NCBI RefSeq assembly: GCF_019739195.1
Contig: NZ_JAHHDS010000003.1
Span: forward strand, 434,001-498,000
Direction of reading: 5' to 3'
Source of the DNA: Microcella sp.
GTDB lineage: Bacteria > Actinomycetota > Actinomycetes > Actinomycetales > Microbacteriaceae
Length of the DNA: 64,000 bases
Position numbers and translations under genes: made by a program. Under the pieces are notes generated by a model. That model was not told the DNA's origin, did no database searches, and worked only from the letters and a program-made list of their open reading frames with translations. This document shows, piece by piece, positions 4,862 to 19,487 of the stretch (its first letter is position 1; each line of letters starts with the position of its first letter).

Positions 4862-5604
4862 GCCCGAGCCTCGAGCTGAGGCGCCACGGTCGACGCGCAG
4901 CGGAAGGTGGGCCCGCCGAGCCCCCAGAAGTGCTCGTCAGAGAGGTCTTCGTCTTCGAAGCACCGGTAGGTGATGCGGGCGTGGGTCTGCGAGAAGATCC
5001 AACTGCCGCCGCGCAGCACTCGATAGCCCTGCTGGTACCCGATCGAGTCGTAGCCGCTGCCCGCATACCCGCGGTAGACGTCGTCGACCCACTCCTCGAC
5101 CAAGCCGACCATCTGCTCACAGCCGTAGGGTGATGCGCCCTGGGGTCGCGCAGTCACCGGTTCGCTGTGCACTCCCGTGACGGCCGCGGTCTCCCAGGTC
5201 AGCGCGCGGTCGGCATCGAACCGGTCTCCCCACGGAAAGACCAGCCCTTGCCCGCCTCCCGCCGCCTTCTCCCACTCCGCCTCGGTCGGCAGACGCTTGC
5301 CCGCCCACCGCGCGTACTCGCAGGCGTTCAGCCAGTTCACCATGACGGGGTGGTCGCCGTACCCTTCCGGGATGCGGCCGCCCTGCCAGTACGAGGGCGC
5401 TCGAGCACCCGTACTGTCGACATAGGCCGCATAGTCGTCGTTGGTCACCGGATACTTGTCCATCCAGAACTCGGGCACATACACACGGCGGCGCGGCGCT
5501 TCGCGCTCGTAGTCATCGCAGCCCATCCACGAGTAGCCCTCGGGCACGTGCACGAGCGTGCTCGCGCCTTTGACGGCGGCGATGGCGGGTTCCATGGTGA
5601 CCAC
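4858..5604 (-). CDS. SUMF1 / formylglycine-generating-enzyme-fold protein (first of pair)
   Basis: 248 residues, a paralogue of the next gene with the same domain layout: VPEGYSWMGCDDYEREAPRRRV, FWMDKYPVTNDDYAAYV, HPVMVNWLNACEYARWAGKRLPTEAEWEKAAGG, FPWGD, GLVEEWVDDV, RVLRGGSWIFS and TFRCAS. It too lacks the CxxxxC copper site of real FGE. GTG start at 5604 is set by AAAGGAG 6 bases upstream. A good -35 (TTGACA) and a -10 inside a palindrome lie 100-130 bases upstream. Reads divergently from the PucR regulator, which is the usual arrangement for a regulator and its target. Substrate unknown. Confidence 0.8.
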   Translation of the reverse strand: MVTMEPAIAAVKGASTLVHVPEGYSWMGCDDYEREAPRRRVYVPEFWMDKYPVTNDDYAAYVDSTGARAPSYWQGGRIPEGYGDHPVMVNWLNACEYARWAGKRLPTEAEWEKAAGGGQGLVFPWGDRFDADRALTWETAAVTGVHSEPVTARPQGASPYGCEQMVGLVEEWVDDVYRGYAGSGYDSIGYQQGYRVLRGGSWIFSQTHARITYRCFEDEDLSDEHFWGLGGPTFRCASTVAPQLEARA

Positions 5605-5700
5605 AGCGGGCTCCTTTCGCGGGCATCCGGCACTGGATGCTCGCTCTGAGTCTGCTCACAGGCTCCCGTCACAACAACGCACAGATTGTCTGGTCTCACC

Positions 5701-5714
5701 TGCTCATATGTGCA
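5701..5714. promoter_or_regulatory. Candidate operator, imperfect palindrome TGCTCA-TA-TGTGCA
   Basis: Fourteen bases with 6 of 7 pairs complementary, centred on CATATG, between the divergent SUMF1 pair and pucR gene. A further TGCTCA half-site lies at 5653-5658. The same half-sites recur at 16032-16037 and four times at 19443-19487. The palindrome covers the -10 box of the leftward promoter, so a bound protein would block it. The binding protein is unknown; the neighbouring PucR regulator is the first candidate. Confidence 0.45.
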
Positions 5715-5734
5715 ATGGGTGGACAACCTGTCAA
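5705..5734 (-). promoter_or_regulatory. Promoter for the SUMF1 gene pair
   Basis: Minus-strand -35 TTGACA (5729-5734) and -10 CATATG (5705-5710) with an 18-base spacer. The -35 is a perfect sigma-70-type hexamer. The predicted transcript has a leader of about 95 bases before GTG at 5604. Confidence 0.5.
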
Positions 5735-5754
5735 GCCTTCGCGAAGGTGCAAGG

Positions 5755-7314
5755 GTGGCTCTCACCGTGCATGACCTCGTGACGCTGCCGGCGCTGGCAG
5801 CCGCAGCGCCCCAGATCGTCAGCGGGAGTCCCGATCGCGGAGTGCGCTGGGTGCACACCTCAGAGATCTTCGATATCGCCACGCTGCTCAAGGGCGGTGA
5901 GGCGCTGTTGACCTCGGGGCTCGGGCTCGTCGGTGCGAACGAGTCGCGGCTGCGCGCCTATGCCCGATCGCTCAGAGAGATCGACGTGGGCGCTCTCTTG
6001 TTCGAAGTCGGCAGAACCTTCAGCGAGGTTCCCCCTGCCATCATCGACGAGCTGCGCGAGTCGCCCGTCGCCCTGGTGCGGCTCGACGGCGTGGTGCCGT
6101 TCATCGACATCACCGAAGCCGCGCACCGCTTGATTCTCGACGCCGAGTCGATGTCGTTGCGGGCCTCGGATCGTGCGACGACCCGTTTCATGGAGGTCTT
6201 GCTCAACGGTGGCGGCGTCGCCGGCATTCTGGGCTCGATCGATGACCTCACGGGGGCTCCTGCCGCGTTCATCGACAGCGAGGGCCGCGAGATCGCCGCG
6301 ACCGGAACGGTGCCGCAGTACGCACGCGAGCTCGAGAGACCGGTCGAGGTGTTCGGTGAGCGCCGCGGATCGATCCGCTCGGCAGCTGCGGTCACCGCCG
6401 ACCACCGCGTCATCATCGACCGTGGTGCGGCGGCCATGGCGCTCGAGTTGACCCGCTCGGGCCCCACGATGCCGACACGGCGCTATGCGCACGAGCAGCT
6501 GCTGCAATCGTTGCTCTCGGGAGACATCTCGGTGACCGAGCTCGAGGCGCGCGCACGTTCTCTCGGCATCGTGATCGGGCAGGCGAACTCGGTGGTCGCC
6601 GTGGCGTGCTTCATCGCACCAGGGCGCGGAATCGACGACGGCTATGTGCACCTCGTCGACACGGTGCCCCGAGCATTCGGGCCATCGATCATCGGGCGCG
6701 TGGGCCCCAGCGTCGTCTTCATCAGCGCACTGGACCGCTCGCAGCCGCTCGACTCGGTGCGAAGCACCCTGACGCGAGTGACCACGGCACCGAGCGGACT
6801 CTTCCGCTCGGTCACAGCAGGCGAGATCGTCGACACGTGGGGCGACGTGCCCTCGTCTCTTCGAGCCGCCCTCGATGCCGCGAACCTGGCGCCCTTGCTC
6901 GGGCAGAACGCGGTGATGCTGGCAGAAGACACCGCCCTGTTCCGGCTGCTGCGCACCATCGACGACGCAGGGGGCCTGGACGACTTCGTCACGGCGCAGC
7001 TGGGTGCCGTGCTCGAGTTCGACGCCCGACGCGGTAGTGAACTGCTGAGCACTCTCATCGAGCTGTTCCGCGCCGGGGGCAGCCGCACAGCCGCAGCTCG
7101 TGCGCTGGGCATCAGACGCCAGACGCTCTACGACCGCATCGATCGGCTCGAGTCGCTGCTCGGGGCCGATGCCCTCACCGATTCCGCGCGAGCCGTGACT
7201 CTGCACGTCGCAACGCTCGCCTGGGCGATCACCACCCGAACGGCGCGAGCGCCCGTCGGCCTGAGTGACCGAACTCGACGCACCTCCTATTCCGCAGAGA
7301 GCAATTCGCGGTAG
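5755..7314 (+). CDS. PucR-family transcriptional regulator
   Basis: 519 residues. N-terminal PucR domain (about 1-125: LTVHDLVTLPALAAAAPQIVSG, VRWVHTSEI, GEALLTSGLGL), a central CdaR/GGDEF-like region (about 260-400) and a C-terminal PucR helix-turn-helix (GGSRTAAARALGIRRQTLYDRIDRLESLLG, about 445-475). The family controls purine, amino acid and related catabolic genes. The frame is open from 5686, but GTG at 5755 is preferred: GAAGG lies 7 bases upstream and the family usually starts just before LTV.DLL. Its last 28 bases overlap the end of the convergent nucleoside hydrolase gene. Likely regulates the SUMF1 pair and/or the nucleoside operon. Confidence 0.9.
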   Translation: MALTVHDLVTLPALAAAAPQIVSGSPDRGVRWVHTSEIFDIATLLKGGEALLTSGLGLVGANESRLRAYARSLREIDVGALLFEVGRTFSEVPPAIIDELRESPVALVRLDGVVPFIDITEAAHRLILDAESMSLRASDRATTRFMEVLLNGGGVAGILGSIDDLTGAPAAFIDSEGREIAATGTVPQYARELERPVEVFGERRGSIRSAAAVTADHRVIIDRGAAAMALELTRSGPTMPTRRYAHEQLLQSLLSGDISVTELEARARSLGIVIGQANSVVAVACFIAPGRGIDDGYVHLVDTVPRAFGPSIIGRVGPSVVFISALDRSQPLDSVRSTLTRVTTAPSGLFRSVTAGEIVDTWGDVPSSLRAALDAANLAPLLGQNAVMLAEDTALFRLLRTIDDAGGLDDFVTAQLGAVLEFDARRGSELLSTLIELFRAGGSRTAAARALGIRRQTLYDRIDRLESLLGADALTDSARAVTLHVATLAWAITTRTARAPVGLSDRTRRTSYSAESNSR

Positions 7315-8216
7315 GCCGCGAAGAATCCCTCCGCGTCGATGTCGGTGATGACCGTCGCGTTCGGAGCATTGCGCGTCGGGCGGTCGTCCATGAGTGAGTA
7401 CCCGCTGGTGAGGCCCGGTCGAGTGTCGACCTCGACGTAGAGCTGCCGCGACGCTCTGATGAGATCAGGGCGCACGAGAAGCATGGCCGTCAACGAGTCG
7501 GGATGCGTGCTGCCGTCGATGCCCACGGTTCGATTGAACTCGAGGTTCGGGGTGTCGAGAATGCGGAAGAACTCGGCGAGCGGCGTACCGAGCGCGGCGA
7601 GCTGCTCGAGCTGCTCGCTCGTCCATAGTGCACGCTCGAGCGTGAGCGTCCAGGTGACGATCGTGGTCTCGAATCCGGCAGCGAGCACGAGCTGGGCGGC
7701 CTCAGGGTCGACATAGAAGTTGTACTCGGCCGCCGCGGTGATGTTGCCGATCGAGTTCTCGCACCCTCCCATAATCCAGAGCGAGCGGGCCTTTCGCGGC
7801 AGATCGCGATCGAGTGCCACGGCCGTCGCGATGTTGGTGAGCGGCCCGATCGCGACGATGTCGATCTCGCCCGGGTTCTCATCGACAATGCGCACGATCG
7901 CCTCAGCGGCCCGCTCATCGCTCGGCGCCTGTGTCGGAACGGGCCACGCGTGATTGCCCTTGCCATCACCGTGGGCGCTCGCCTCCACCCACTCGCGCAG
8001 CAGCGGCGTTCGGGCGCCGAGGTGCACCGGCACCTCGCCTCTCCGACCGGCCTGCTCGATTGTGATGAGGGCGTTCTGAACCTGCTGATCGAACGCGACG
8101 TTGCCCGCGACGATCGTCACAGCCTCGAGTTGAGCCGAGGGGTGGCGAAGCCCGACCAGCATGGCGAAGCTGTCGTCAGCGGCCGTGTCGGTATCGATGA
8201 TCATGCGTCGAGTCAC
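7287..8216 (-). CDS. Nucleoside hydrolase (IUNH family), last gene of nucleoside operon
   Basis: 309 residues. Cleaves the N-glycosidic bond of ribonucleosides to free base and ribose. The calcium-binding N-terminal motif is DTDTAADDS (family DxDxGxDD, here with Ala for Gly), with VAIGPLTNIA, WIMGGCENSIGN and AEYNFYVDPEAA further on, all typical of IUNH enzymes. GTG at 8216 is chosen because AAGGAG lies 5 bases upstream and GTGA overlaps the previous stop; ATG at 8204 would start right at the metal motif. About the same length as the second hydrolase at 16049-17002 but clearly diverged. Base preference cannot be read from sequence. Confidence 0.9.
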   Translation of the reverse strand: MTRRMIIDTDTAADDSFAMLVGLRHPSAQLEAVTIVAGNVAFDQQVQNALITIEQAGRRGEVPVHLGARTPLLREWVEASAHGDGKGNHAWPVPTQAPSDERAAEAIVRIVDENPGEIDIVAIGPLTNIATAVALDRDLPRKARSLWIMGGCENSIGNITAAAEYNFYVDPEAAQLVLAAGFETTIVTWTLTLERALWTSEQLEQLAALGTPLAEFFRILDTPNLEFNRTVGIDGSTHPDSLTAMLLVRPDLIRASRQLYVEVDTRPGLTSGYSLMDDRPTRNAPNATVITDIDAEGFFAAYRELLSAE

Positions 8217-9535
8217 AGAATCTCCTTCTGCTGGATGATGGCGTTGCTCATGAGGGCGCCGCCCGCGCGCGGATCGCGGAAGGCGAGCGCGAGCACGCCG
8301 CCGATCGCCGCCAGAAACCCACAGCTCACGAAGATCGTGGTGGGGCCCACGATCGGCACGAGCGCCCCGGCGAGCAATGGCCCCGCGATGAAGAACGGCG
8401 CCAGCAGCGTCAGAGTCGTGCCCAGGTAGACGCTCGTGCGGCCCGGTGGCGCGAACTCGATCGACATGCTGGGATCGCACACGAAGGTCAACGAGTTCGC
8501 ACCGCCGAGCAGCGCGCAGGCCAGTGCGAACAGAAGCAGGCTGTCGGCGACCGCTGCGGTGAGCATCCCGCACACCAGAAGCAGCGCGCCGACCACCACG
8601 ACGACGCGATAGCCGGTGCGATTTCCGAGCACACCGAGACCGAAGCCGATGACGGCCTGCGCGAGCACGAATGCGGCCGCGAGCAGAGCCGCATCGGGCG
8701 CCTGCAACGGCCCCGCGAGACCAGCGACCACGACGAAGCCGACTCCCCCGGTCGCGGCCGCCATGGCCGCGCGCGCCGTGAGGTAGCGACGGTAGTGACG
8801 GTGCTCTGCGAGCATGCGGGGCACACCGGCGAGGGTGTGACGAAAGGGCGGGCGTGCCTCGGCGACAGGAAACTCGTGGTCGACCAGATTCGCCACGAAG
8901 ACGATCGACAGCAGCGAGAGGCCTAGTGCTGCCCAAAAGGCAATCTGGTTTCCGAGCGGAAAAGGGTAGGTCGCCAGCAGCCGCTCGGCTCCGAGCGCGG
9001 CGAGGAAGCCGAGCACGCCCCCGAGCAGCTGCACGAGGCCGAACACCCATCCGCGCGCCACGGTGATCGCCTTGGCGATGAAGTCTCCGTAGACAGGGCC
9101 CAGCAGACCGACGGTCGTCGAATAGGCCGCGAAGGCGAGAAAGAACAGCACGATCACGAGCTCAGTCGTGAGCACCCCCGCGAGTGAGGCGGCGATCGCG
9201 ATGAGCAGAATCGCCACCCGCTCGGCGATGACAATCGTCAAAAACAGCGGTTTGCGCCGCCGTCGGCCCAGCACCAGGTGGGCACCGACCAGCTGCGGCA
9301 GATAGCGGCCCAGCGCCCACACTGCGCCGACGAGCCCGACGAGGAAGGCACTGCCGGTCAGGGCCTGCACGAAGGCGGGGATGATCGTGGTCTCGCTCAA
9401 GAGCGACATCGCCAGGGCGAACGTGCCGCCCTCGAGCACCATGAGCGTCATGTTGCGACGCCGGTGGCGTTCCATACCCGCGACGAATTCTGGAGCAAGA
9501 ACTCTCAGCTGCTCGACGTCGGCCGCGATCGTCAT
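8213..9535 (-). CDS. MFS-type transporter (second of tandem pair)
   Basis: 440 residues with about 12 hydrophobic segments and a short cytoplasmic N-terminus (HRRRNMTLMVLEGGTFALAMSLLSETTIIPAFV). Repeated hydrophobic blocks in two halves joined by a loop near residues 215-245 fit the major facilitator fold. It is a close paralogue of the preceding gene: shared segments include LSETTIIPAF, GSA-LVGLVGA, LGRY-PQL-GAHLVLGR and APPG-TSVYLG. ATG at 9535 overlaps the previous stop by 4 bases. Context between nucleoside phosphorylases and a nucleoside hydrolase suggests nucleoside or base transport; direction (import of nucleosides, export of unused base) is open. Confidence 0.85.
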   Translation of the reverse strand: MTIAADVEQLRVLAPEFVAGMERHRRRNMTLMVLEGGTFALAMSLLSETTIIPAFVQALTGSAFLVGLVGAVWALGRYLPQLVGAHLVLGRRRRKPLFLTIVIAERVAILLIAIAASLAGVLTTELVIVLFFLAFAAYSTTVGLLGPVYGDFIAKAITVARGWVFGLVQLLGGVLGFLAALGAERLLATYPFPLGNQIAFWAALGLSLLSIVFVANLVDHEFPVAEARPPFRHTLAGVPRMLAEHRHYRRYLTARAAMAAATGGVGFVVVAGLAGPLQAPDAALLAAAFVLAQAVIGFGLGVLGNRTGYRVVVVVGALLLVCGMLTAAVADSLLLFALACALLGGANSLTFVCDPSMSIEFAPPGRTSVYLGTTLTLLAPFFIAGPLLAGALVPIVGPTTIFVSCGFLAAIGGVLALAFRDPRAGGALMSNAIIQQKEIL

Positions 9536-10848
9536 GGCAGCACCTCGTCGTGGCGCTCGCCGGTGGCAACGCGATGGCGAGGCTCCCGCACGCGCAGGCA
9601 CAGCAGGGCCCCCGCGCCCGCGAGCACGGCTGCTGCGATGAAGACCGGGGTGAAGCCGACCACCGGAGACAGCACGCCTGCCAGCAACGGACCGGCGATG
9701 AAGAAGGGACCCAGCGCGGTCGACGTGAGCCCGAGGTACACGCTCGTCGCGCCCGGCGGGGCGAGTTCGATCGACATGTTCTGGTCGCCGACAAACACGA
9801 GTGAGTTCGCCCCTCCGAGCATCGCCATGGCGATGATGCTGACCGTCAGTGATCCGCCGACGGCCGCGACCGCGAACCCGACTGCCATGAGTGCGCCGCC
9901 CGTCACCATGACTGCTCGCCAGCCCACGGCGTTGCCGAGCGCGCCGAGCCCGAAACCCAGCACCGCTTGAGCCAAAATGAACGCCGCGGCGAGCAGCGCT
10001 GCATCAGAGGGCACCAGCGTCGAGCCCTGCAAGCCTGCGACGACGACGAAGCCCATGCCGCCCGCCGCGATCGCCTGGAGAAGGCGGCCAACGAGGTAGC
10101 GCCGGTAATCGGGGTCAGTGCGCAGAATGCCCGGGATGCTCGCCAGCGTTCGCGTAAACGCCGGTCGCGGCGCGGGGTCAGGCAGGCGCTCTTCTTTCAA
10201 GAAACTCACGAGCACGAGCGAGACCAACGAGCCGGCGACGGCCGCCCAGAACAGAATCTGGTTGCCCACCGGAAAGGGGTACTCGCGAATGACGTTTTCG
10301 GCGACGAGCGCCGCACCGAAGCCGAGAAGCCCGCCGATCAATTGCACAGTGCCGAAGAAGAGACCGCGCCCGACCGGAACCGCCTTCGCGACGAAGTCGC
10401 CGAAGACGGGCCCGATGATGCCCGCGAGCGCCGCGTACATTCCGAACGAGATCAAGAACAGCACGACGACGAGCGAGGTGTCGAGCGTGCCCGCGAGCTG
10501 CGCGCTCGCCGCGACGGCCAGAATTCCGATGCGCTGCCCGACGATGATGGTGACGAACAGAGGCTTGCGGCGCTCGCGACCGAGCACGAGGTGCGCTCCG
10601 ATCAGCTGCGGCGCATACCGCCCGAGAGCGAAGATCGCTCCGACGAGCCCGACGAGCACTGCACTGCCCGTCAAGCCTTCGACGAAGGCAGGAATGATCG
10701 TCGTCTCGCTCAGCATCGAGAGCACGAGTGCGAATGCCGCCCCGTCGAGGATCATCAGGGTGACGTTGCGCTTCTGGTGCTCGCGCATGCGAGCGACGTA
10801 CTCCGGAGCAACTCGAGCGAGTCGCTCCGAATCGGCCGTCAAGGCCAT
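9532..10848 (-). CDS. MFS-type transporter (first of tandem pair)
   Basis: 438 residues, about 12 membrane segments, same family and architecture as the next gene (HQKRNVTLMILDGAAFALVLSMLSETTIIPAFV at the N-terminus, FGDFVAKAVPVGRG in the middle, MSIELAPPGATSVYLG near segment 10). The two are neighbouring duplicates that have diverged, perhaps to split substrates such as purine and pyrimidine compounds. The start overlaps the end of the upstream phosphorylase gene by 10 bases and no strong Shine-Dalgarno is seen, which fits translational coupling. Confidence 0.85.
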   Translation of the reverse strand: MALTADSERLARVAPEYVARMREHQKRNVTLMILDGAAFALVLSMLSETTIIPAFVEGLTGSAVLVGLVGAIFALGRYAPQLIGAHLVLGRERRKPLFVTIIVGQRIGILAVAASAQLAGTLDTSLVVVLFLISFGMYAALAGIIGPVFGDFVAKAVPVGRGLFFGTVQLIGGLLGFGAALVAENVIREYPFPVGNQILFWAAVAGSLVSLVLVSFLKEERLPDPAPRPAFTRTLASIPGILRTDPDYRRYLVGRLLQAIAAGGMGFVVVAGLQGSTLVPSDAALLAAAFILAQAVLGFGLGALGNAVGWRAVMVTGGALMAVGFAVAAVGGSLTVSIIAMAMLGGANSLVFVGDQNMSIELAPPGATSVYLGLTSTALGPFFIAGPLLAGVLSPVVGFTPVFIAAAVLAGAGALLCLRVREPRHRVATGERHDEVLP

Positions 10849-11606
10849 GAAGCGCCCGAACGATCGTGTGCGATCAGCACGCGCAACGACTCCACGGCCG
10901 TGGCGAGAAGATGCTCGCGGTTCTGGTCGATCTCCCCGCCGACGGCGTCATTGTGCACTTGCATGATGCCGCCTGCTCTTGCACGGTGAATGGCACTGAT
11001 CAGAAAGATGGTCGACGCTTCCATCTCAGAGCAGATCGCCCCGCCCGCCACCCATGCAGCCCAGCGCTCGGCGAGCATGGCCGCCATCGGCATGCGCTCG
11101 GGTTCAACTTCGCCGTAGAACGAGTCTTTTGACTGCGTGACACCGCGTTGCCAGGGTGCGCCCGTGCGGCGTGCGGCCTCCGTGAGCGCATCGACGACCA
11201 GTGGGTCGGCGATCGCCGGAAACTCCATGGGCAAATAGTGGCTCGAGGTGCCTTCGTCGCGAATGGCCGCGGTCACGATCGCGAGTGTGCCCGAGGGGGT
11301 ATCGGGCTGGATGGCCCCCGACGTGCCGACGCGGATGAAGGTGTCGGCACCGAGCTTGATGAGCTCTTCGACAGCGATCGCCGACGAGGGGCATCCGATA
11401 CCGGTGGAGACCACGCTGACGGCGACGCCGTCCAGGGTTCCCGTATATGTCGTGTACTCCCGGTTGCTCGCGACGTGGCGGGCATCGTCGAACAGAGCAG
11501 CAATGGGCTCGCAGCGGCCGGGGTCACCCGGCAACAAGACGTAGCGGCCGACATCGCCGCGGCGCAGATGCAGGTGATGCTGAAGATCAGCGTCGAGGCC
11601 GCTCAT
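10839..11606 (-). CDS. Nucleoside phosphorylase, uridine phosphorylase-like (second of pair)
   Basis: 255 residues. NP-I family enzyme: phosphate-binding LLPGDPGRCEPI, STGIGCPSSAIAVEEL, FIRVGTSGAIQ and ribose-binding EMEAST match uridine phosphorylase (Udp) closely. The reaction is nucleoside plus phosphate to base plus ribose-1-phosphate in the cytoplasm. It shares SQSKDSFYG and MPMAAMLAERWAAWVAGGAICSEME-type segments with the gene immediately upstream, so the two arose by tandem duplication. ATGA overlap with the previous gene. Specificity (uridine versus others) is not certain. Confidence 0.88.
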   Translation of the reverse strand: MSGLDADLQHHLHLRRGDVGRYVLLPGDPGRCEPIAALFDDARHVASNREYTTYTGTLDGVAVSVVSTGIGCPSSAIAVEELIKLGADTFIRVGTSGAIQPDTPSGTLAIVTAAIRDEGTSSHYLPMEFPAIADPLVVDALTEAARRTGAPWQRGVTQSKDSFYGEVEPERMPMAAMLAERWAAWVAGGAICSEMEASTIFLISAIHRARAGGIMQVHNDAVGGEIDQNREHLLATAVESLRVLIAHDRSGASWP

Positions 11607-12385
11607 GCCGCCGCCTCGCGATCACGAGCGATCAGTTCGCGAAGACCCGCGATCGCCGGCGGCAGCAGGTTATCCATCGAGCCCTTGGCCAGCTCCGCCT
11701 CGGTCATCGGCGACTGGTCGTGGTGGCCGAGGATGAGCATGATGCCGCCCGCACGCACGCGCAACGTCGACGCAACGATGTAGAGCGCCGCGGCCTCCAT
11801 CTCTGAGCAAATTGCGCCACCCGCCATCCAGGCCGACCAGCGTTCAGCGAGTCTGCCGGCGACCGGCATGCGACCGGGCTCGTGCTGGCCGTAGAACGAG
11901 TCTTTCGACTGACTGATTCCGACGTGCACCGTGTGCCCCAACGAGCGAGCGCCGACGGCAAGCGCGCGAGTGACATCGATATCGGCCACGGCCGGAAACT
12001 CGACCGGCAGATAGTGCAGAGTCGTGCCTTCGTCGCGGATGGCGCCACTGATGACACCGAGGTCGCCCGGCGCGATCTCGGGCTGCATGGCACCCGAGGT
12101 GCCCACCCTGATGAAGGTGTCAGCGCCCACCTTGACGAGCTCCTCCATGGCGATCGATGCTGAGGGGCATCCGATGCCCGTCGATGTCACCGATACCTTC
12201 TCGCCGTCGAGCGTGCCTGTCCACGTCTCGTACTCGCGATTGCGAGCGACGAGCACGGGGTCGTCGAAGTACTGAGCGATCGGCTCGCTGCGGCCCGGGT
12301 CGCCGGGGAGCAGCACATACCTGCCCACTTCTCCTGGCGCGACCTGAATGTGGTGTTGCCGGTCGTCGTGTGTCGTGACGGCCAT
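11603..12385 (-). CDS. Nucleoside phosphorylase, uridine phosphorylase-like (first of pair)
   Basis: 260 residues with LLPGDPGRSEPIAQYF, TSTGIGCPSASIAMEEL, FIRVGTSGAMQPEI, LHYLPVEFPAVAD and EMEAAALYI in the same order as uridine phosphorylase. The segment LH-APLEFPAVAD is also found in E. coli Udp, which favours pyrimidine nucleosides, but purine activity cannot be excluded. Lies 12 bases after the ECF T-component gene and overlaps the next gene by 4 bases. With the hydrolases in the same run, the cell has both phosphorolytic and hydrolytic routes from nucleoside to sugar. Confidence 0.88.
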   Translation of the reverse strand: MAVTTHDDRQHHIQVAPGEVGRYVLLPGDPGRSEPIAQYFDDPVLVARNREYETWTGTLDGEKVSVTSTGIGCPSASIAMEELVKVGADTFIRVGTSGAMQPEIAPGDLGVISGAIRDEGTTLHYLPVEFPAVADIDVTRALAVGARSLGHTVHVGISQSKDSFYGQHEPGRMPVAGRLAERWSAWMAGGAICSEMEAAALYIVASTLRVRAGGIMLILGHHDQSPMTEAELAKGSMDNLLPPAIAGLRELIARDREAAA

Positions 12386-12397
12386 GATGTGAGCCTC

Positions 12398-13294
12398 CTA
12401 GCTCTGCTTGAACGACAGGATGAGCGCGAACAGGATGATGCTGAGGAAGAGCGAGGCGGAGACCACCCAGACGATGACGGCCGTCGCCGGCTCCACCACC
12501 AGCAGCTCGCTGACGTTCCAGCCGCCGCGCATGATCGACATCGTGCCCAGCGTCGCTGCTCCCGCGACTCCGACGAGGGCGAGAATGACGTCGGTCGGTT
12601 TTCCTTTCACCTGCCGATACGACGACTTGTGGCCTGCAGACCCGAACCCGCGCGACTCCAGCGAGATCGAGAGCTGCTGCACGCGTTCGATCGCGCCCAC
12701 GAAGACGGGCACGAAGCTTGGAAGCACTGCTTGAAAACCGTTGCCCTTCATGCCCCGAGACTTCTGAGCACTCAGAATGATGCCGACCTCGCGCTGGAAG
12801 ACCGGAATCAACTGCAGCGTCATCGCCATCATGAAGTTCAACGTGTACGGCACCTTGAGCTTCGACAGGGTCGTGAACAGGTCGCTCGGGTGCGTGGTCA
12901 TCACCACGACGAGCGCCATCAGCAGGCAGGCGACGATGCGCCCCAGCAGCACGAGACCGTAATACAGCCCGTCTTCATAAAGCGTGATCGGCCCGAATTC
13001 GGCGATCTGCGTCCACGGCTGCTCGACGGCAGGTGCCATGAGCTGCAGCGCCAGCAGAGACGAGCCGATCGGCACGATGATGAACGCCGCCTTGAGCATG
13101 GGGCGGATGACGCCGCTGACGATCGCCAAGAACAGTGCGAATGCTGCCATGCCGTAGAGCAGGAAGATGTTCTGAGTCATGAAGGCCACGACGACGTAGA
13201 GCACGACCCAGATCATCTTGGGCAACGGGTGAATGCGGTGCATGACCGAGTCGCCGGGAATCAGTGAGACCGGCAGGGCTCCTTGCATAGACAT
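12398..13294 (-). CDS. ecfT: ECF transporter T component (EcfT)
   Basis: 298 residues, CbiQ/EcfT family. Several membrane segments (about 25-75, 105-140, 230-295) and a cytoplasmic coupling region holding two short Arg motifs, AQKSRGM and SLESRGFG, which match the two coupling helices that dock on the ATPases. The protein joins the substrate-binding S subunit to the ATP-hydrolysing pair. Starts 8 bases after the end of the upstream ATPase gene. The presence of T, two A and S genes side by side indicates a dedicated (group I) ECF transporter rather than a shared module. Confidence 0.9.
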   Translation of the reverse strand: MSMQGALPVSLIPGDSVMHRIHPLPKMIWVVLYVVVAFMTQNIFLLYGMAAFALFLAIVSGVIRPMLKAAFIIVPIGSSLLALQLMAPAVEQPWTQIAEFGPITLYEDGLYYGLVLLGRIVACLLMALVVVMTTHPSDLFTTLSKLKVPYTLNFMMAMTLQLIPVFQREVGIILSAQKSRGMKGNGFQAVLPSFVPVFVGAIERVQQLSISLESRGFGSAGHKSSYRQVKGKPTDVILALVGVAGAATLGTMSIMRGGWNVSELLVVEPATAVIVWVVSASLFLSIILFALILSFKQS

Positions 13295-13302
13295 TGCGGC
13301 TC

Positions 13303-14184
13303 CTAGCCTTGGCGTTCGAGTCGGGCGACGAGATCGTCGACGAGTTCAGCTGGGGTGAGTGCCACGGGGCCACCGTGCGGAACAACGGTCTGCAGGGCGA
13401 TCTCGGTCACCTGCGGTGCTTGCAGGTTCGTGCGGGCCATCAGCGTCTTGTCGGCGAAGACCTCTCGAGGCGAGGCGTCTGCGATGATCTGCGCGTCTTT
13501 CATGACGATGACGCGCTTCACCACATCCGCCAGCAGCGGCATGTCGTGCGAGACGCAGACGACCGTCGTGCCTTGATCGGCAAGCTTGCCCATCAAGTCG
13601 TTGATGATCGACGTTGTCTGGTGATCTTGGCCGGTCGATGGTTCGTCGAGAATCAAGATGGAAGGCTCCATCGTGACGATAGAGGCGATTCCGACGAGCT
13701 TCCTGATCGGAAAGCTGACGCGATAGGGGTGCTCGTCGATGACATCTCGAAGCCCGAAGAACTCGACCGCACGAGCCACTCGCTCAGCGAGCTCGTCGCC
13801 TTCGATGCCGATATTCGTCGGCCCGAACTCGAGTTCCGCCTGAATGGTGCGAGCGAACAGCTGGTGATTGGGGTTCTGAAACACGTAGCCGATGTGAGCA
13901 GACATCTCTTGCACGGTACGGCCCGCCGTCGAGATGCCGTTGATCATCACCTCTCCGCTTGACGGCTTCAAGAGCCCATTGAGCAGTTTGGTGAGCGTCG
14001 TCTTGCCTGATCCGTTCTGGCCGATGATGCCCAGAATCTCGCCGTGCTCGACGGTCACGCTCACGCCATCGAGGGCGACAACCTTGCCGTGCGGATACAC
14101 GTAGTGGGCATCGTTGACCACGATGGCGTGGGGAGCGTTCGACCGGGCTTCGGCAGGCGACGGCATGGGAATCTTCTTAGCCAC
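13303..14184 (-). CDS. ecfA: ECF transporter ATPase (second A subunit)
   Basis: 293 residues. ABC ATPase with Walker A GQNGSGKTT, Q-loop region YVFQNPNHQLF typical of EcfA, a degenerate signature (RVSFPIRKLVGIAS in place of LSGGQ), Walker B ILILDEPSTGQD and switch His in CVSHDM. The altered signature motif suggests an asymmetric heterodimer in which one composite ATP site is weak. The frame opens at 14244, but GTG at 14184 follows GGAGG with a 6-base spacer and overlaps the upstream gene by 8 bases, so it is the likely start. Confidence 0.88.
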   Translation of the reverse strand: MAKKIPMPSPAEARSNAPHAIVVNDAHYVYPHGKVVALDGVSVTVEHGEILGIIGQNGSGKTTLTKLLNGLLKPSSGEVMINGISTAGRTVQEMSAHIGYVFQNPNHQLFARTIQAELEFGPTNIGIEGDELAERVARAVEFFGLRDVIDEHPYRVSFPIRKLVGIASIVTMEPSILILDEPSTGQDHQTTSIINDLMGKLADQGTTVVCVSHDMPLLADVVKRVIVMKDAQIIADASPREVFADKTLMARTNLQAPQVTEIALQTVVPHGGPVALTPAELVDDLVARLERQG

Positions 14185-15040
14185 GCTGGGCCTCCAAAAG
14201 GGTATTGATGGCGCTGACGGCTGTCTCTGTGCGGGTGGGAACATCGCCCTTCCACAGCCCGCGCTCGCTCAGCATGGTGGCGAGGGCGGCGCTCTCCGGA
14301 ACGCGCAAGTGCAGGGCAGCCAGTTCGTCGACTCGGCTGAAGATCTCTTGAGGGGTGCCGTTCATGACGACACGGCCGTGGTCGAGAACGACGACACGGT
14401 CGGCATAACGGGCCATGACCTCCACCTCGTGCTCAATCACGATGACGGTCATGCCCTTGTCACGGTTCAGCGTCGCCGCCATATCGAACACTTCTTGCTT
14501 GCCGATCGGGTCGAGGTTCGACGTCGGCTCGTCCATGATGAGAATCTGCGGGCTCATCGCCAAGACGGCGGCGATCGCGAGACGCTGCTGCTGACCGCCC
14601 GAGAGGCCGAGAGGCGAGCGCTTCTCGAACCCAGCGAGGCCGACAAGCTCGAGCGTCTCGGGAATAATGCGGATCATCTCTTCATAGGGCACGCCTGCGT
14701 TCTCGAGTCCAAGCGCAATCTCCTCAGCAACCGAGAGCTGGCTCATCTGAAACTCCGGGTTGTCGAACACGATGCCGACGACTTTCGCCATCTCTCGCAC
14801 GGCGTACTCGCCGACCTCGAGACCCGCGACGGTGACCGAACCGGTCATCTCACCGCCGAGCATCGTCGGTACAACTCCGTTGACGCAGAGGCCGAGCGTG
14901 GTCTTTCCGGCTCCATTGAGTCCCAGCACAGCCACGTACTCGCCGGGCATGACAGAGAAATCGATCGAGTTCAGTGCCGGCTCTTCTGTGCCGGGATAGG
15001 TGTAGGTGACATTGTCAAAAGTGATGATGGGGTCGGTCAT
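14177..15040 (-). CDS. ecfA: ECF transporter ATPase (first A subunit)
   Basis: 287 residues. Canonical ABC ATPase: Walker A GLNGAGKTT, FDNPEFQMSQLSVAEEIALGLEN, signature [12 protein letters not shown], Walker B ILIMDEPTSNLDP and HEVEVM for the switch His. Unlike its partner it keeps an intact signature, so the two A subunits are not equivalent. ATG at 15040 is preceded by GGAGG 5 bases upstream, just after a 15-bp hairpin that separates it from the S-component gene. Works in the cytoplasm to drive uptake of the ligand bound by the S subunit. Confidence 0.9.
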   Translation of the reverse strand: MTDPIITFDNVTYTYPGTEEPALNSIDFSVMPGEYVAVLGLNGAGKTTLGLCVNGVVPTMLGGEMTGSVTVAGLEVGEYAVREMAKVVGIVFDNPEFQMSQLSVAEEIALGLENAGVPYEEMIRIIPETLELVGLAGFEKRSPLGLSGGQQQRLAIAAVLAMSPQILIMDEPTSNLDPIGKQEVFDMAATLNRDKGMTVIVIEHEVEVMARYADRVVVLDHGRVVMNGTPQEIFSRVDELAALHLRVPESAALATMLSERGLWKGDVPTRTETAVSAINTLLEAQRG

Positions 15041-15054
15041 GATTCCTCCGTTGC

Positions 15055-15088
15055 GTCCGGGCGCGCGACGGTTGTCGCGCGCCCGGAC
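15055..15088 (-). other. Intercistronic hairpin between S and A genes of ECF operon
   Basis: Perfect 15-bp inverted repeat (15055-15069 and 15074-15088) with loop GGTT. No T-run follows on the minus strand; the ATPase ribosome binding site comes directly after. It is therefore more likely an mRNA-stabilising, processing or partial-termination element than a full terminator. Confidence 0.7.
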
Positions 15089-15102
15089 GGTTGTGGTCGT
15101 GC

Positions 15103-15816
15103 CTATGCGCCAGCGTTGATGGCGAGGAACACGACGACGATGAGCACGCCGATGACGACACCGGCGACGGCAAGAAGCACGCCTTTCAATGGTGTCGCCT
15201 TCACTATGTCGAGATTCTGTGTCAACGATTTCGGCAACGCTTCGATGATCGCTAGTGCTACGAAGCCCGCGATGATCTTGTCGGCCAGAGACGTCAGAAT
15301 GTTCGACGAGAACACAGACCCCGCGAGATTCTGCCCGACCGCGAGGAACGTGCCGGTGAGTGCGTCAGCACCCGCGCCGGTCGCGCCACCGAAGACCAGA
15401 ACGATGATCGGCGCGGCCACGATGGTGCACGCGACAGCGACGATGATGTTCAGCAGGAAGAACCGCGGGATCGTGCGGCCGAGGCCCCACGAGCGCACGC
15501 CGTAGCCCCAGAGCAGGGCGCCGACGACGTTGACGAGAGCGAACGGCAAGCTCACCGGACCGGTGATGAGCGCCGAGCCGGTGTTCGTGAGAACACCGAC
15601 GAGCGCCCCCCACCAGGGGCCGAGCACGATCGCAGAGATCGCGGTGCCGATCATGTCGAGGTAGACCGGCAGTCGCAGAGCAGACGCGATGTAGCCGCCG
15701 ACGATGTTGAGGGCCACGCACACCGGAATGAGCGTGACGATCAGTGTCGTCGGCAGGTTGTTGCGGTTGAAGCGACTGCTCTTCTTCGGAGCAGAAGCCA
15801 CTGGGGCGTTGGTCAT
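15103..15816 (-). CDS. ECF transporter S component (substrate-binding membrane subunit)
   Basis: 237 residues with six hydrophobic segments (about 25-47, 52-75, 80-100, 118-148, 175-190, 208-235) and the pattern LPVYLDMIGTAISAIVLGPWWGALVGVLTN, characteristic of a large ECF S-component family. It binds the ligand in the membrane and hands it to the EcfT/EcfA module encoded downstream. The surrounding hydrolases, phosphorylases, ribokinase and aldolase make a nucleoside, base or pentose the probable ligand; this is inference, since S subunits diverge too fast to call by motif. The 232-base leader upstream is unusually long for this operon. Confidence 0.8.
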   Translation of the reverse strand: MTNAPVASAPKKSSRFNRNNLPTTLIVTLIPVCVALNIVGGYIASALRLPVYLDMIGTAISAIVLGPWWGALVGVLTNTGSALITGPVSLPFALVNVVGALLWGYGVRSWGLGRTIPRFFLLNIIVAVACTIVAAPIIVLVFGGATGAGADALTGTFLAVGQNLAGSVFSSNILTSLADKIIAGFVALAIIEALPKSLTQNLDIVKATPLKGVLLAVAGVVIGVLIVVVFLAINAGA

Positions 15817-16048
15817 GATCCATGCCTTTCGAATCGGGGGTGAACAACCGCGCGGCGTCTCTGCCGCGCGGCACTCGAAGAAGTCGGGACGTCACCATCG
15901 ACGCTCGACCAGGATTCGCTCTTGTGGAGCGCTTCGAACGACCGTGCGCGACGACGGCCGCTGGACGCGGTCGCCTTTCGCGCACTCGGACGAACGGAGT
16001 CGAAGACCGCTGCCGGGCGTGCAACGGAATATGAGCAGGCGCTGAAGA
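15817..16048 (-). promoter_or_regulatory. Long leader of the ECF transporter genes with hairpin
   Basis: A 232-base stretch with no gene in an otherwise gapless operon. It holds a perfect 9-bp hairpin with a 6-base loop at 15848-15871, about 32 bases before the S-component start, followed on the minus strand by TTGTTC only, a weak T-run. At its far end (16029-16037) the minus strand reads TGCTCATAT, the same nine bases as at 5701-5709. It may carry an internal promoter, an operator, or a ligand-sensing RNA; I could not match a known riboswitch. Confidence 0.4.
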
Positions 16049-17002
16049 TCACGAGTCGAACGCTTCCGCGAGGGTGTCGGCGAAGACATCAGCATCGGCA
16101 CGCAGCGCAACGCGCGCATTGTGCGGCAGGGGCGACCACGGTCGCTCATCGATGACCAGTGAGCCGACGCTGTGAAGCCCGCCTGTTTCGACGGTGACGG
16201 CCGCGCTGATCACCTGCGTGAGCACCGCGGGGCGCAGCAGTGCCGCGATGCACAACGCATCATGAACCGGTGCAGCATCCATGGGAGTGTGCTCAGAACC
16301 GGGATACGTGTCGATGCGGCCGCGGACCAATGAGGCGGTGGCCACAGCACCCGGCGTGCCGATGGCGTCGAATCGAGCGCAGTGATCACGACTGATCGCA
16401 GCGTCATGGGTCGCATCGAGCGGCACGATCAGCACGTCAGCGATGCCCGCGGAGAGCACCGCTGCGGCAGCCTCCGGGTCGACCCAGAAATTAAACTCTG
16501 CCGTCGCCGTGACGTTGCCCCACCCTCGCGCGCCACCCATGATCACCAAGCGAGGGATGCGGGTGGCGAGGCGCGGCTCTGCAGCGAGCGCCGCCGCAAT
16601 ATTCGTGAGGGGCCCGACCGCCACGAGTGTCGTCTCTGGACCATCGGGACCCAGATAGTGCTCGATGAGCACCTCTACGGCCCCTCGCTCAGATGCTGTC
16701 GACACGGGGTCGGGCAGATCGAGTCGGCGCTTCTGGAACTCTTCTCGCCCGGCGTTGAGCACATCGCGCGGAATCGGGAAGTCGGATCGAACGAGTGGGC
16801 GAGGGCATCCGGCATGCACGGGAATCGAGCTTTCTATCGCATCGAGCACGCGGAGCGTGTTGTCGGTCGTGTTCTCGAGGGGCACATTGCCATTGACAGT
16901 GGTGACGGCGATGAGGTCGAGCGCTGGATGAAGCGCGGCTGCCATGATTGCGACGGCGTCGTCAGAGCCGGTGTCGCAGTCGATGATGAGCTTCATCGTC
17001 AT
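16049..17002 (-). CDS. Nucleoside hydrolase (IUNH family)
   Basis: 317 residues. The metal site DCDTGSDDA (residues 8-16) fits the IUNH DxDxGxDD consensus exactly. VAVGPLTNIAAAL, LVIMGGARGWGNVTATAEFNFWVDPEAA and DATHDAAIS follow in the family order. It hydrolyses ribonucleosides to base and ribose, which the ribokinase three genes upstream can phosphorylate. ATGA overlap with the GntR gene. It differs from the hydrolase at the operon end in keeping the Gly of the metal motif, so the two probably have different preferences. Confidence 0.92.
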   Translation of the reverse strand: MTMKLIIDCDTGSDDAVAIMAAALHPALDLIAVTTVNGNVPLENTTDNTLRVLDAIESSIPVHAGCPRPLVRSDFPIPRDVLNAGREEFQKRRLDLPDPVSTASERGAVEVLIEHYLGPDGPETTLVAVGPLTNIAAALAAEPRLATRIPRLVIMGGARGWGNVTATAEFNFWVDPEAAAAVLSAGIADVLIVPLDATHDAAISRDHCARFDAIGTPGAVATASLVRGRIDTYPGSEHTPMDAAPVHDALCIAALLRPAVLTQVISAAVTVETGGLHSVGSLVIDERPWSPLPHNARVALRADADVFADTLAEAFDS

Positions 17003-17784
17003 GAGGCCACCTCGTGCGCCTGCGGACGTTCGAGCACCATGCTCACGTGCACATCGTCGCTCGCGATCCAGACCTCGGAGTGCTCCAGAGGGCGACCGTC
17101 CGCCAGAAAAGCGGTCTGCCGGAGGTGCAGAACCGGAGAGCCTTCGTCTACCTGAAGGTGGCGGGCGATGTCGCCCGTGGCCGCCCGAGCAGAGAACATA
17201 CGCCGCGCATAGGCGAGGGCGAGACCGTAGTGAAGCTCGAGCAGGTCGAAGAGCGTGCGGCCGACGAGATCGAGCTTCTCGAGATCGGGGGCGAGGTCGG
17301 CGCGAACGAAGTTGTAGAGCAGGGCGATCGGGGTCGTATCGGCGCTGCGCACCCGCTCAATGCACACGACCGGCTCGTCGGCGAGCACATGCAGTTCAGC
17401 ACCGACGGCGACGTCGGGCACGGCGAGCTCAGCGCGCAGCACGACCGTGGTGAGGTGCAGACCCTGACGGGCGAAGTCTTCGGCGATGCCCCGAAGCTCT
17501 CCCTCGGCCTTCGGAATCGCGGCAGTCGCGACCACGAAGGTGCCCCTGCCCTGGGTCTGCGTGAGCAGGCCCTCGTCGATGAGCGTCGACAGGGCACGAC
17601 GCACGGTGCCCCGGCTGACCTTGAGCTCGGCTGCAAGATCGGGTTCGGCAGGCAGTTGCTGGCCGATCGGCCAGGTGCCCGCGCCAATGCGTGCCCGGAT
17701 CGCATCAGAGATCTGAGTGTGCAGGGCCGTCGCTCCCGCACGGTCGATGCTGGTTGCTCCCTTTCTCCACTCGAAGATGGCCAT
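16999..17784 (-). CDS. GntR/HutC-family transcriptional regulator
   Basis: 261 residues. N-terminal winged helix-turn-helix (about 22-85: LHTQISDAIRARI, WPIGQQLPAEPDLAAELKVSRGTVRRALSTLIDEGLL) and a C-terminal UTRA ligand-binding domain (about 105-250: VVCIERVRSADTTPIAL, GSPVLHLRQTAF, LEHSEVWI). HutC-type regulators usually repress a catabolic operon until a sugar, nucleoside or amino acid derivative binds. It sits inside the operon 2 bases after the DeoC-like gene, which fits autoregulation; the palindrome at 19372-19385 is a plausible operator. Confidence 0.92.
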   Translation of the reverse strand: MAIFEWRKGATSIDRAGATALHTQISDAIRARIGAGTWPIGQQLPAEPDLAAELKVSRGTVRRALSTLIDEGLLTQTQGRGTFVVATAAIPKAEGELRGIAEDFARQGLHLTTVVLRAELAVPDVAVGAELHVLADEPVVCIERVRSADTTPIALLYNFVRADLAPDLEKLDLVGRTLFDLLELHYGLALAYARRMFSARAATGDIARHLQVDEGSPVLHLRQTAFLADGRPLEHSEVWIASDDVHVSMVLERPQAHEVAS

Positions 17785-17786
17785 GA

Positions 17787-18461
17787 TCAGTAGCTCCTCG
17801 TGGTCGTGTCGTCGCTACCGCTGACGATCTCGATGCCCGCACTCGTTCCGACCAGCGCGGCACCCGCGGCGATCAGCTCTCGCACCTGATGGGCACTCGT
17901 GATGCCTCCCGATGCCTTGACGAGCACGCCGTCGCGCACCCGACTCGACAACCATGCGATGCTCGCGACGTTCGCGATCTCGACCGCACCGCTGCTGGCA
18001 TTTTTGAGGTAGGCGGCCCCTGCTTCCATGGCGAGTTCGACCGCGGCCTCGCGTTCGGCTGCCGTCAGCAGTGGAAGCTCGAGCATCACCTTCACGGGCA
18101 CGCCGCTCGCCGTGACGACACCCGCGATGTCGTCACGAAAGGCGTCGAACCGGCCCGACTTCAGCCACCCGATCTGACACCCGATGTCGAGCTGCTGAGC
18201 GCCGGCCGCCACGAGTTGCTCGGCTTCAGCGGCCTTGCCCCGTGGTGTGGTGATGCCGACGATCGGAAAATCGAGCGCCGAAGCGACAACGACCTCGGTG
18301 CCTGACAGCACCGAGGCGACCTCGCGCACCCATGAACCCGGAACCATGGCGGCCTGAAAGCCCCACTGGACGCACTCTTCGGCATGAGCCGCCATGCGGT
18401 CGGCCGTCAGGTCGGCGGCGATCAGGGTGTGCTGGATAACCGCAGCCAGTTCGGCGTTCAT
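17787..18461 (-). CDS. Deoxyribose-phosphate aldolase-like (DeoC) protein
   Basis: 224 residues, DeoC/FbaB-type TIM barrel. Seen: IQHTLIAADLT at the start, DIGCQIGWLKSG (DeoC has E-I-D-x-V-x-N-I-G-x-L-K-S-G), LKNASSG at the position of the Schiff-base KTSTG, and VKASGGI for the second catalytic Lys. The Schiff-base Lys is kept but the motif around it is changed and the upstream Asp-Val/Met-Val-Ile stretch is altered, so the true substrate could be another sugar phosphate. ATG at 18461 overlaps the ribokinase stop by 4 bases. Likely splits 2-deoxyribose-5-phosphate to acetaldehyde and glyceraldehyde-3-phosphate. Confidence 0.82.
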   Translation of the reverse strand: MNAELAAVIQHTLIAADLTADRMAAHAEECVQWGFQAAMVPGSWVREVASVLSGTEVVVASALDFPIVGITTPRGKAAEAEQLVAAGAQQLDIGCQIGWLKSGRFDAFRDDIAGVVTASGVPVKVMLELPLLTAAEREAAVELAMEAGAAYLKNASSGAVEIANVASIAWLSSRVRDGVLVKASGGITSAHQVRELIAAGAALVGTSAGIEIVSGSDDTTTRSY

Positions 18462-19363
18462 GCTGCGGCCCCCGCCAGTTCGTCGCGTCGCGGAATGCCG
18501 GCGATGACGCCGCGGTGCTCGACCGAGAAGGCTGCGGCGCGGCAGGCGATCGTGACAGCATCGTTGAGCTCTGCACCGGCGGAGTACTCGGCTGCGAAGA
18601 CGCCCACAAAAGTGTCGCCGGCGCCGGTCGTGTCGACCACGACAGCGCTGGGCGACGTGATGCGGCTCACTGAGCCGTTGTCGACCACGATGGCGCCTTC
18701 CGCGCCGCACGTCAGGATGATGTCGCCCGAGCAGTGCTCGGCAAGCGCGACCGCGATGGCGAGGTCGTCGAGGTCGACGGCCTCGAGCCCGAGCAGTGAC
18801 CTCGCTTCGGTCTGGTTCGGAACCAGGATGTCAGCGGTGGTCCAGAGTTCACGAGGCACATCTGTCGCCGGAGCGGGATTCAGGATGACGGGAATGCCTG
18901 CGCGTCGGGCCGCGTCACAGCAGCGCATCGCCGCGTCGTGGGGCACTTCGAGAGAGATGACGAGGGCAGAAGCCCCCTCCAATGCGGTCGCTGCAAGCGG
19001 CTCGACACGTGCACCCCACAACGCGTCGAGCGCGCCCGCAGCGATCGCGATGCGATTCTCGCCCTCGCCGTCGACAAGAATCACGCCGGCCATCGTCGCG
19101 TCATCGACAGTGATGACGGCTGCGTCATCGACACCCTCGCGCGACCACAGCTCTCGCGCGGCTCGGCCGTCGGCATCGTCTCCGATCGCCGTGATCAAGG
19201 TCGGCCGTGATCCCCACCGAGCGATGGCAATGGCCTGATTCGATCCTTTGCCGCCATGCTCGCGGGTGAGCACACCACCCGAGACTGTCTCGCCCGCGTG
19301 CGGCATGCGGGCGAGCTGCATGGTGATACCCACGCCGTACCCACCGAGAACCGCGATCGACAT
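18458..19363 (-). CDS. Ribokinase-like PfkB-family sugar kinase, first gene of nucleoside operon
   Basis: 301 residues. PfkB family: substrate motif GGKGSNQAIAIARWG (residues about 38-52) and ATP/anion-hole signature DTTGAGDTFVGVFAAE (about 243-258) with the catalytic Asp. Ribokinases phosphorylate ribose to ribose-5-phosphate, which is what the nucleoside hydrolases of this operon would require. The N-terminus MSIAVLGGYGVGI lacks the usual N-x-D of ribokinase (there is no Asp after GYG), so sugar choice could differ. Promoter and two kinds of operator-like repeats lie upstream. First gene of a run of 13 minus-strand genes. Confidence 0.87.
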   Translation of the reverse strand: MSIAVLGGYGVGITMQLARMPHAGETVSGGVLTREHGGKGSNQAIAIARWGSRPTLITAIGDDADGRAARELWSREGVDDAAVITVDDATMAGVILVDGEGENRIAIAAGALDALWGARVEPLAATALEGASALVISLEVPHDAAMRCCDAARRAGIPVILNPAPATDVPRELWTTADILVPNQTEARSLLGLEAVDLDDLAIAVALAEHCSGDIILTCGAEGAIVVDNGSVSRITSPSAVVVDTTGAGDTFVGVFAAEYSAGAELNDAVTIACRAAAFSVEHRGVIAGIPRRDELAGAAA

Positions 19364-19371
19364 TGATCACC

Positions 19372-19385
19372 TTGTCTGTAGACAA
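19372..19385. promoter_or_regulatory. Candidate GntR operator TTGTCT-GT-AGACAA
   Basis: Perfect 6+6 inverted repeat with a 2-base centre, 9 bases upstream of the ribokinase start and downstream of the predicted -10 box. It resembles the GTnTAnAC-type core of HutC/GntR operators, and a GntR/HutC gene is in the same operon. Placement fits a repressor acting as a roadblock. Confidence 0.5.
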
Positions 19386-19407
19386 CCATGGACAAATGGT
19401 GAACGTG

Positions 19408-19437
19408 ACTGTACTGACATCCCCGAACTCACGGCAA
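19408..19437 (-). promoter_or_regulatory. Promoter of the nucleoside operon
   Basis: Minus-strand -35 TTGCCG (19432-19437) and -10 TACAGT (19408-19413) with an 18-base spacer, about 45 bases before the ribokinase start. The TGCTCA-CC-TGAGCA palindrome begins 6 bases upstream of the -35, the usual place for an activator. Confidence 0.5.
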
Positions 19438-19442
19438 GGCTC

Positions 19443-19487
19443 TGCTCACCTGAGCACAAAGCGTGCTCAGAGGAGCGCAGATGAGCA
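19443..19487. promoter_or_regulatory. Cluster of four TGCTCA/TGAGCA half-sites
   Basis: TGCTCA (19443-19448) and TGAGCA (19451-19456) form a perfect 14-base palindrome; TGCTCA (19464-19469) and TGAGCA (19482-19487) form a second, wider pair. All fall in the intergenic gap upstream of the operon promoter. The same half-sites occur near pucR and in the ECF leader, suggesting a shared regulator. Confidence 0.5.

Follow-up and report, generated by a model that had tools for sequence, protein, structure and literature searches.

Among described regulators of nucleoside catabolism, DeoR of Bacillus subtilis is a repressor whose operator spans -60 to -21 at dra-nupC-pdp; the left half-operator is palindromic with TTGAACA halves, and the complex forms only with both half-operators (PMC11229326). 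Corynebacterium glutamicum GabR, an actinobacterial regulator of the PucR type, has inverted-repeat sites (two 21-bp repeats) in the divergent gabR-gabT intergenic region (PMC7652997). Here we consider the palindrome TGCTCANNTGAGCA in a 64,000-nucleotide stretch of Microcella sp. (Microbacteriaceae; contig NZ_JAHHDS010000003.1, positions 434,001 to 498,000; the window), where it stands in a nucleoside locus upstream of the ribokinase-family gene rbsK and, in degenerate form, beside the regulator gene pucR. From sequence comparison, it is very probably the operator of a DeoR-like regulator of the SorC family that is encoded outside the window, would act in trans and probably responds to a pentose phosphate.

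Like B. subtilis DeoR, the present system combines a palindromic half-operator upstream with a second element near the -35, a deoC-type neighbour and a connection with nucleoside catabolism; it differs in the half-site (TGCTCA here, TTGAACA in DeoR), in the gene order deoR-deoC-aldH and in its motif-linked genes, which include those for a ribokinase and for PnrA-like and RbsB-like proteins. The pucR side of the locus recalls the divergent region of GabR, although the distribution of the palindrome is not that of PucR. Bacillus thuringiensis NupR, a GntR/HutC-type regulator of nucleoside uptake, is an analogue for a second palindrome before rbsK, a predicted GntR operator, but its consensus is a 20-bp imperfect one (PMC9430930), unlike that found here. 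Paralogues of RbsR in Bifidobacterium are predicted in PMC4746261 to control nucleoside hydrolase, transporter and ribokinase genes, as here, but belong to the LacI family.

Searches of the open-licence literature returned no title or start of an abstract that describes the palindrome (its inner 12-mer occurred once, in a paper unrelated by its title and the start of its abstract), nothing on the SorC family with a nucleoside regulon in Actinobacteria and nothing on PucR binding sites with nucleosides in Actinobacteria. The regulator belongs to a known type, and the operator word was not found in these searches. The palindrome is a candidate operator for a regulator matched in 48 of 120 sampled family genomes (E 1e-60). 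Its predicted regulon comprises nucleoside hydrolases, phosphorylases and ribokinase together with uptake proteins of the PnrA-like and RbsB-like kinds. The case also illustrates that a motif is easily credited to the regulator gene beside it although a likelier reader is encoded elsewhere.

The palindrome and a SorC-family regulator gene

Of the 26 genomes of the genus, 24 hold an exact palindrome 89-147 bp upstream of the SorC-family regulator gene, the exceptions being G012 (one site, inside an open reading frame, ORF) and G020 (none), which are 71% and 75% complete. Across the family, loci were returned for 30 of the 48 genomes with a regulator match, covering 24 genera, and the palindrome lies upstream of the regulator orthologue in 29 of these 30, with no mismatch in 23 and one in six. 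In 26 of the 29, a TTGNNN-(16 to 19)-TANNNT pair follows the end of the palindrome at a distance of 15 (5 loci), 16 (20) or 18 (1) nt. By hand count, exact motifs occur in 39 of the 48 family genomes with the regulator versus 3 of 20 listed genomes without it, a further 52 genomes without a regulator match being unlisted and outside this comparison (Fisher 4.5e-7, uncorrected for relatedness).

A ROK kinase match shares the fetched locus in all 24 genus genomes with the palindrome before the regulator, and was considered as the motif-linked gene. We rejected it: 14 of 15 family loci without a ROK gene in the fetched flank still carry the palindrome, and the motif therefore follows the regulator and not the kinase, whose product had no Pfam match other than the ROK family.

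The regulator gene of this genome lies on the same contig at C3:352349-353356, about 81 kb before the window (which starts at C3:434001). Its 336-aa product carries the PF04198 sugar-binding effector domain (9.3e-54; 182.8 bits, cut-off 27), which places it in the SorC family, and its best match in the PDB is the deoxyribonucleoside regulator 8r7y (1.2e-45, residues 10-315), which we take to be the B. subtilis DeoR of PMC11229326. The N-terminal helix-turn-helix is of the DeoR sub-class, the 8r7y alignment starting at residue 10 and the DeoR DNA-binding domain 7bhy matching at 8.8e-06. All 30 orthologues keep two recognition-helix arginines, which align with arginines of DeoR; assuming a five-residue offset in the PDB chain, they would correspond to R34 and R39, which contact bases in DeoR (PMC11229326). 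The gene after the regulator is deoC (TIGR00126, 161 bits, above the cut-off of 117), followed by two aldehyde dehydrogenase-type proteins, and deoxyribonucleoside genes are linked to the regulator both by this adjoining deoC and by the joining of the nucleoside cluster to it in two genera. In locus L150 (2917-5333) the aldehyde dehydrogenase-type genes stand in tandem; the second product is short (293 aa), and its match to the family profile is confined to the N-terminal half.

The two genera are those of G089 and G265, where a cluster rbsK-deoC-gntR-nh1-ECF-phosphorylases-MFS-nh2, with one MFS gene instead of two, runs into regulator-deoC2-aldH and exact palindromes stand both before rbsK and before the regulator. 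G160, of the same genus as G089, has the pieces on two contigs, with an exact palindrome before rbsK and a copy with one mismatch before the regulator. Over the -35 of the regulator promoters, about 20 bp from the palindrome centre, lies a second element, CNACGRRTGTTG, degenerate in some loci (by eye, L090-L119), which is possibly a second half-operator. In several genus genomes the second element has a CAACATWTGTTG-like form.

Ten ORFs beside the motif were hand-picked and not chosen blind. Five encode Bmp/PnrA-type binding proteins, the motif lying 3' of the gene in one case, and two encode ribose-binding-like proteins, for which RbsB is the top NCBIfam profile but scores under its cut-off; the others encode a metallophosphoesterase with a 5'-nucleotidase C-terminal match, an ABC ATPase and a glycosyltransferase-like protein. 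With such binding proteins as its neighbours, the motif fits a nucleoside and pentose regulon. PnrA/Bmp-type genes accompany the palindrome at L153 (G189), L061, L082 and L123, at L153 twice within 1.4 kb.

Sites in the nucleoside locus

The locus in the window runs rbsK-deoC-gntR-nh1 / ecfS-ecfA-ecfA-ecfT-two phosphorylases-two MFS-nh2. The pucR gene converges on nh2, and two SUMF1-like genes, the first of them sumfA, diverge from pucR. The locus is syntenic in this genome, G021 and G017 (the genus trio). An exact copy of the palindrome, P1 (TGCTCACCTGAGCA, 19443..19456), lies upstream of the minus-strand rbsK and is invariant in six of six aligned genomes from three genera, with six different centre dinucleotides; in the six upstream regions all 12 motif columns are invariant versus 25 of the 158 other columns. 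An imperfect palindrome, P2 (AGCGCAGATGAGCA, 19474..19487, of which the TGAGCA at 19482-19487 is part), follows at 31 bp centre to centre. At this spacing from P1, NGCGCMNNTGMGCA is found in three of three genus genomes, and P2 was not recognised by eye upstream of rbsK in the other two genera. Between P1 and P2 stands a TGCTCA half-site (19464..19469), which reads TGCKCAGA throughout the trio.

Between sumfA and pucR lies a putative degenerate operator, TGCTCATATGTGCA (5701..5714), one mismatch from the palindrome; its counterparts have two mismatches in G021 and one in G017, and the distance from the beginning of the site to the PucR start is 54, 54 and 55 nt in this genome, G021 and G017. 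Nine of its 12 motif columns are invariant in the aligned intergenic region versus 48 of 138 others. The single TGCTCA at 5653..5658 is not kept as TGCTCA in G021 or G017, and is probably not a site on its own. A single TGAGCA between ecfS and nh1 (16032..16037), set within TGCTCATAT on the minus strand at 16029-16037, is absent from G021, G017 and G265, G089 having one TGAGCA in its ecfS-nh1 region; we rejected it as a regulatory site, as it is not conserved among the compared loci.

By itself the hexamer is uninformative and carries no weight. The window holds 76 copies versus 31 expected from shuffles. Rough gene calls place 59 of these copies in coding DNA, at a density of 1.05 per kb versus 2.2 per kb elsewhere, and the three intergenic regions together hold seven in 548 bases. 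The full palindrome is much more selective: this genome (2,880,602 bases) contains two exact copies and seven places with at most one mismatch, two of which are 19443-19456 and 5701-5714 of the window. Four of the other five places were examined, one lying beside a SorC regulator (L001), two inside predicted ORFs (L004, L006) and one between genes (L003); the fifth is C3:2069514. Looser matching gives little excess at two mismatches (103 places in the genome versus 89 for a reversed control pattern) and none at three (22 in the window versus 26.8 expected). Among the 26 genus genomes the exact palindrome occurs in 25 and the reversed control has no exact match.

The preliminary description had proposed a TGCTCA/TGAGCA motif shared by three intergenic regions of this locus. 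Its letters and coordinates are all correct on re-reading, and two of the regions hold when orthologous loci are compared, that upstream of rbsK (six of six) and, in degenerate form, that beside pucR (three of three), while the one between ecfS and nh1 falls away. Counted over the whole genome, what singles the motif out is the rarity of near-exact palindromes, with two of only seven inside the locus, and not the common hexamer or the two-mismatch matches.

Proposed reading and its rivals

The palindrome is assigned to the SorC regulator because regulator orthologues carry the motif upstream and genomes in which no PucR was found keep the site at rbsK. The SorC/DeoR-like factor would bind its own promoter and, in trans, the rbsK-deoC-gntR-nh1 promoter at P1 and perhaps also at P2, some three helical turns off, a pairing that may be likened to SorC-family tetramers on two half-operators; it would bind the sumfA/pucR intergenic region more weakly. 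The likely signal is a pentose phosphate that arises when nucleosides are degraded. Homology to B. subtilis DeoR inclines us slightly towards repression of the rbsK genes, with release by the pentose phosphate, activation being the alternative.

A possible rbsK promoter on the minus strand consists of a -35, TTGCCG (19432..19437), and a -10, TACAGT (19408..19413), with an 18-nt spacer, and a TTGNNN-17/18-TANNNT pair is present in six of six aligned promoters. A stricter sigma-70 scan found no promoter upstream of rbsK or in the sumfA/pucR region, and a TTGACA on the minus strand of the latter was rejected as a promoter for want of a fair -10; the rbsK transcription start is therefore inferred. 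Relative to it, P1 is estimated to lie at about -55 to -42, a position from which both repression and activation are possible. The palindrome ends 5, 5, 5, 6, 16 and 16 nt before the -35 in this genome, G021, G017, G265, G089 and G160, respectively, and the difference between 5-6 and 16 nt is about one helical turn. A more far-reaching picture, which we offer tentatively and as rather doubtful, is that a DeoR-like SorC regulator with non-DeoR ligand chemistry senses ribose- and deoxyribose-derived phosphates family-wide, that the genus recruited a patchy nucleoside cluster and PucR/SUMF1 to it so that three regulators are stacked at the locus, and that the helically phased SorC sites upstream of rbsK are activator sites.

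Several observations weigh against the SorC assignment or parts of it. One regulator locus of the 30 (L116) has no palindrome upstream, and 9 of the 48 regulator-bearing genomes have no exact copy. Across the family the reversed control pattern also matches, in 27 of 299 genomes versus 121 with the exact palindrome (hand counts). In 21 of 57 locus rows (some places being listed twice, and two rows being single-mismatch sites) the palindrome falls inside a predicted ORF; five of these are over-long regulator or ROK calls and the rest may be chance. At rbsK, a second half-operator overlapping the -35, as in the regulator promoters, was not recognised, and no genome outside the genus showed P2. 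Beside pucR, the site is degenerate and no better conserved than some other parts of the intergenic region: three other frames also reach nine invariant columns, one being offset by just 1 nt, so that this site rests mainly on its likeness to the palindrome. As to the regulator itself, the DeoR profile NF053881 is top in NCBIfam at 237.7 bits but short of its cut-off of 420, and we therefore call the protein DeoR-like and not DeoR. An asparagine stands in 30 of 30 orthologues at the position that presumably aligns with the DeoR lysine taking its covalent effector, deoxyribose-5-phosphate; the effector here may therefore differ from deoxyribose-5-phosphate. The passage on the effector in PMC11229326 has the word 'covalently', and searches of the open-licence literature for DeoR with Schiff base, deoxyribose-5-phosphate and Lys141 found nothing.

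Another core regulator, neither SorC nor PucR, might read the palindrome in response to a nucleoside signal and also control the SorC gene. The motif is tied to SorC by association, and it also occurs in three of the 20 listed genomes that gave no regulator match; but in 29 of 30 loci it precedes the very gene of the regulator, as autoregulation predicts, and motif and regulator co-occur over genomes, so that we regard such a factor as unlikely.

The preliminary description had taken the sites as candidates for the PucR-type regulator of the locus, which would activate rbsK and repress sumfA. Both kept sites flank the PucR-encoding cluster, one of them 54-55 nt before pucR in all three genomes, and according to PMC7652997 the characterised PucR-type proteins are activators, except B. 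subtilis PucR, which both activates and represses, and several of them bind inverted repeats. The distribution of the gene is at odds with this. PucR was matched (E 1e-30) in 3 of the 26 genus genomes (this one, G021 at 70% and G017 at 61%) and not found at that threshold in the other 23, versus 25 of 26 with the exact palindrome. The rbsK palindrome is kept in G089, G265 and G160, in none of which PucR was found at E 1e-10 (G160 being 77% complete); nor did another four genomes from the genus of G265 give a match at that threshold. At 15 distant PucR homologue loci (13 distinct, two pairs giving identical results; L018, on the same contig as G017, and the short partial matches L027 and L028 were left out) the palindrome was absent within 400 bp upstream, the best match having 3 mismatches of 12. 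PucR was therefore rejected as the reader, as the site does not follow its gene across genomes, and we hold it improbable that the local PucR binds the palindrome; what stands of the earlier proposal is a transcription-factor site shared by two of its three regions.

It is very improbable that the GntR-UTRA regulator of the locus reads the palindrome: gntR is present in the genus trio, G089 and G265, but matches (E 1e-40) in 3 of 26 genus genomes versus 25 of 26 for the palindrome, and a second palindrome, TTGTCTGTAGACAA, exact only in locus-bearing genomes, is the better GntR candidate. Chance over-reading of a common hexamer, which the 76 mostly coding copies, the little or no excess at two or three mismatches and the unconserved 16032 site would suit, is to be preferred at 5653 and 16032 alone and is otherwise negligible, contradicted by the conservation at rbsK, the rarity of the full palindrome, its retention across genera and the empty reversed control in the genus.

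Further elements and gene layout

The second palindrome before rbsK, TTGTCTGTAGACAA (19372..19385), lies 8 nt before the rbsK ATG and is conserved at 14 of 14 positions in the genus trio. Among the 26 genus genomes, the exact form TTGTCTNNAGACAA is confined to the three with the locus, and related sequences stand before rbsK in G089, G265 and G160 (by eye). The three genus genomes with GntR matches are the same three as for PucR, and the element, with a GT-N6-AC spacing, co-occurs in the genus with gntR. HutC-type operators have a GT-N4-AC spacing. By position and co-occurrence, TTGTCTGTAGACAA is probably the operator of the GntR (UTRA) regulator of the locus, which would add a local second layer of control at rbsK, downstream of the possible promoter and ahead of the start codon.

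Adjoining the pucR-side site is a GACAnnnTGTC repeat, GACAACCTGTC (5722..5732), with GACANNNTGTC at the same place in three of three genomes; these repeats beside pucR may be candidate PucR sites. Upstream of pucR in G017 (L017), two copies of GACACGGTGTC flank the pucR-side site.

In the window, the names of the ECF A and T components and of the MFS genes come from reading the ORFs, and the S component and the hydrolase, phosphorylase and SUMF1 domains from profile matches. Of the four minus-strand genes under P1, rbsK (18458..19363) has a PfkB match and scores 245 bits with TIGR02152, under its 300-bit cut-off; deoC, for deoxyribose-phosphate aldolase (17787..18461, start chosen), reaches 149 bits with TIGR00126 over 17787-18470 (cut-off 117); gntR (16999..17784) matches PF00392 and PF07702; and the nucleoside hydrolase gene nh1 (16049..17002) matches PF01156. 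On the plus strand, pucR (5755..7314, from a chosen GTG start) matches PF07905 and PF13556 when scanned from 5686, and sumfA (4858..5604, minus strand) matches PF03781. Two adjacent SUMF1-like genes with the FGE-sulfatase domain (4136-5604 in the window) are kept as neighbours of pucR and of the nucleoside cluster in all genomes of the trio.

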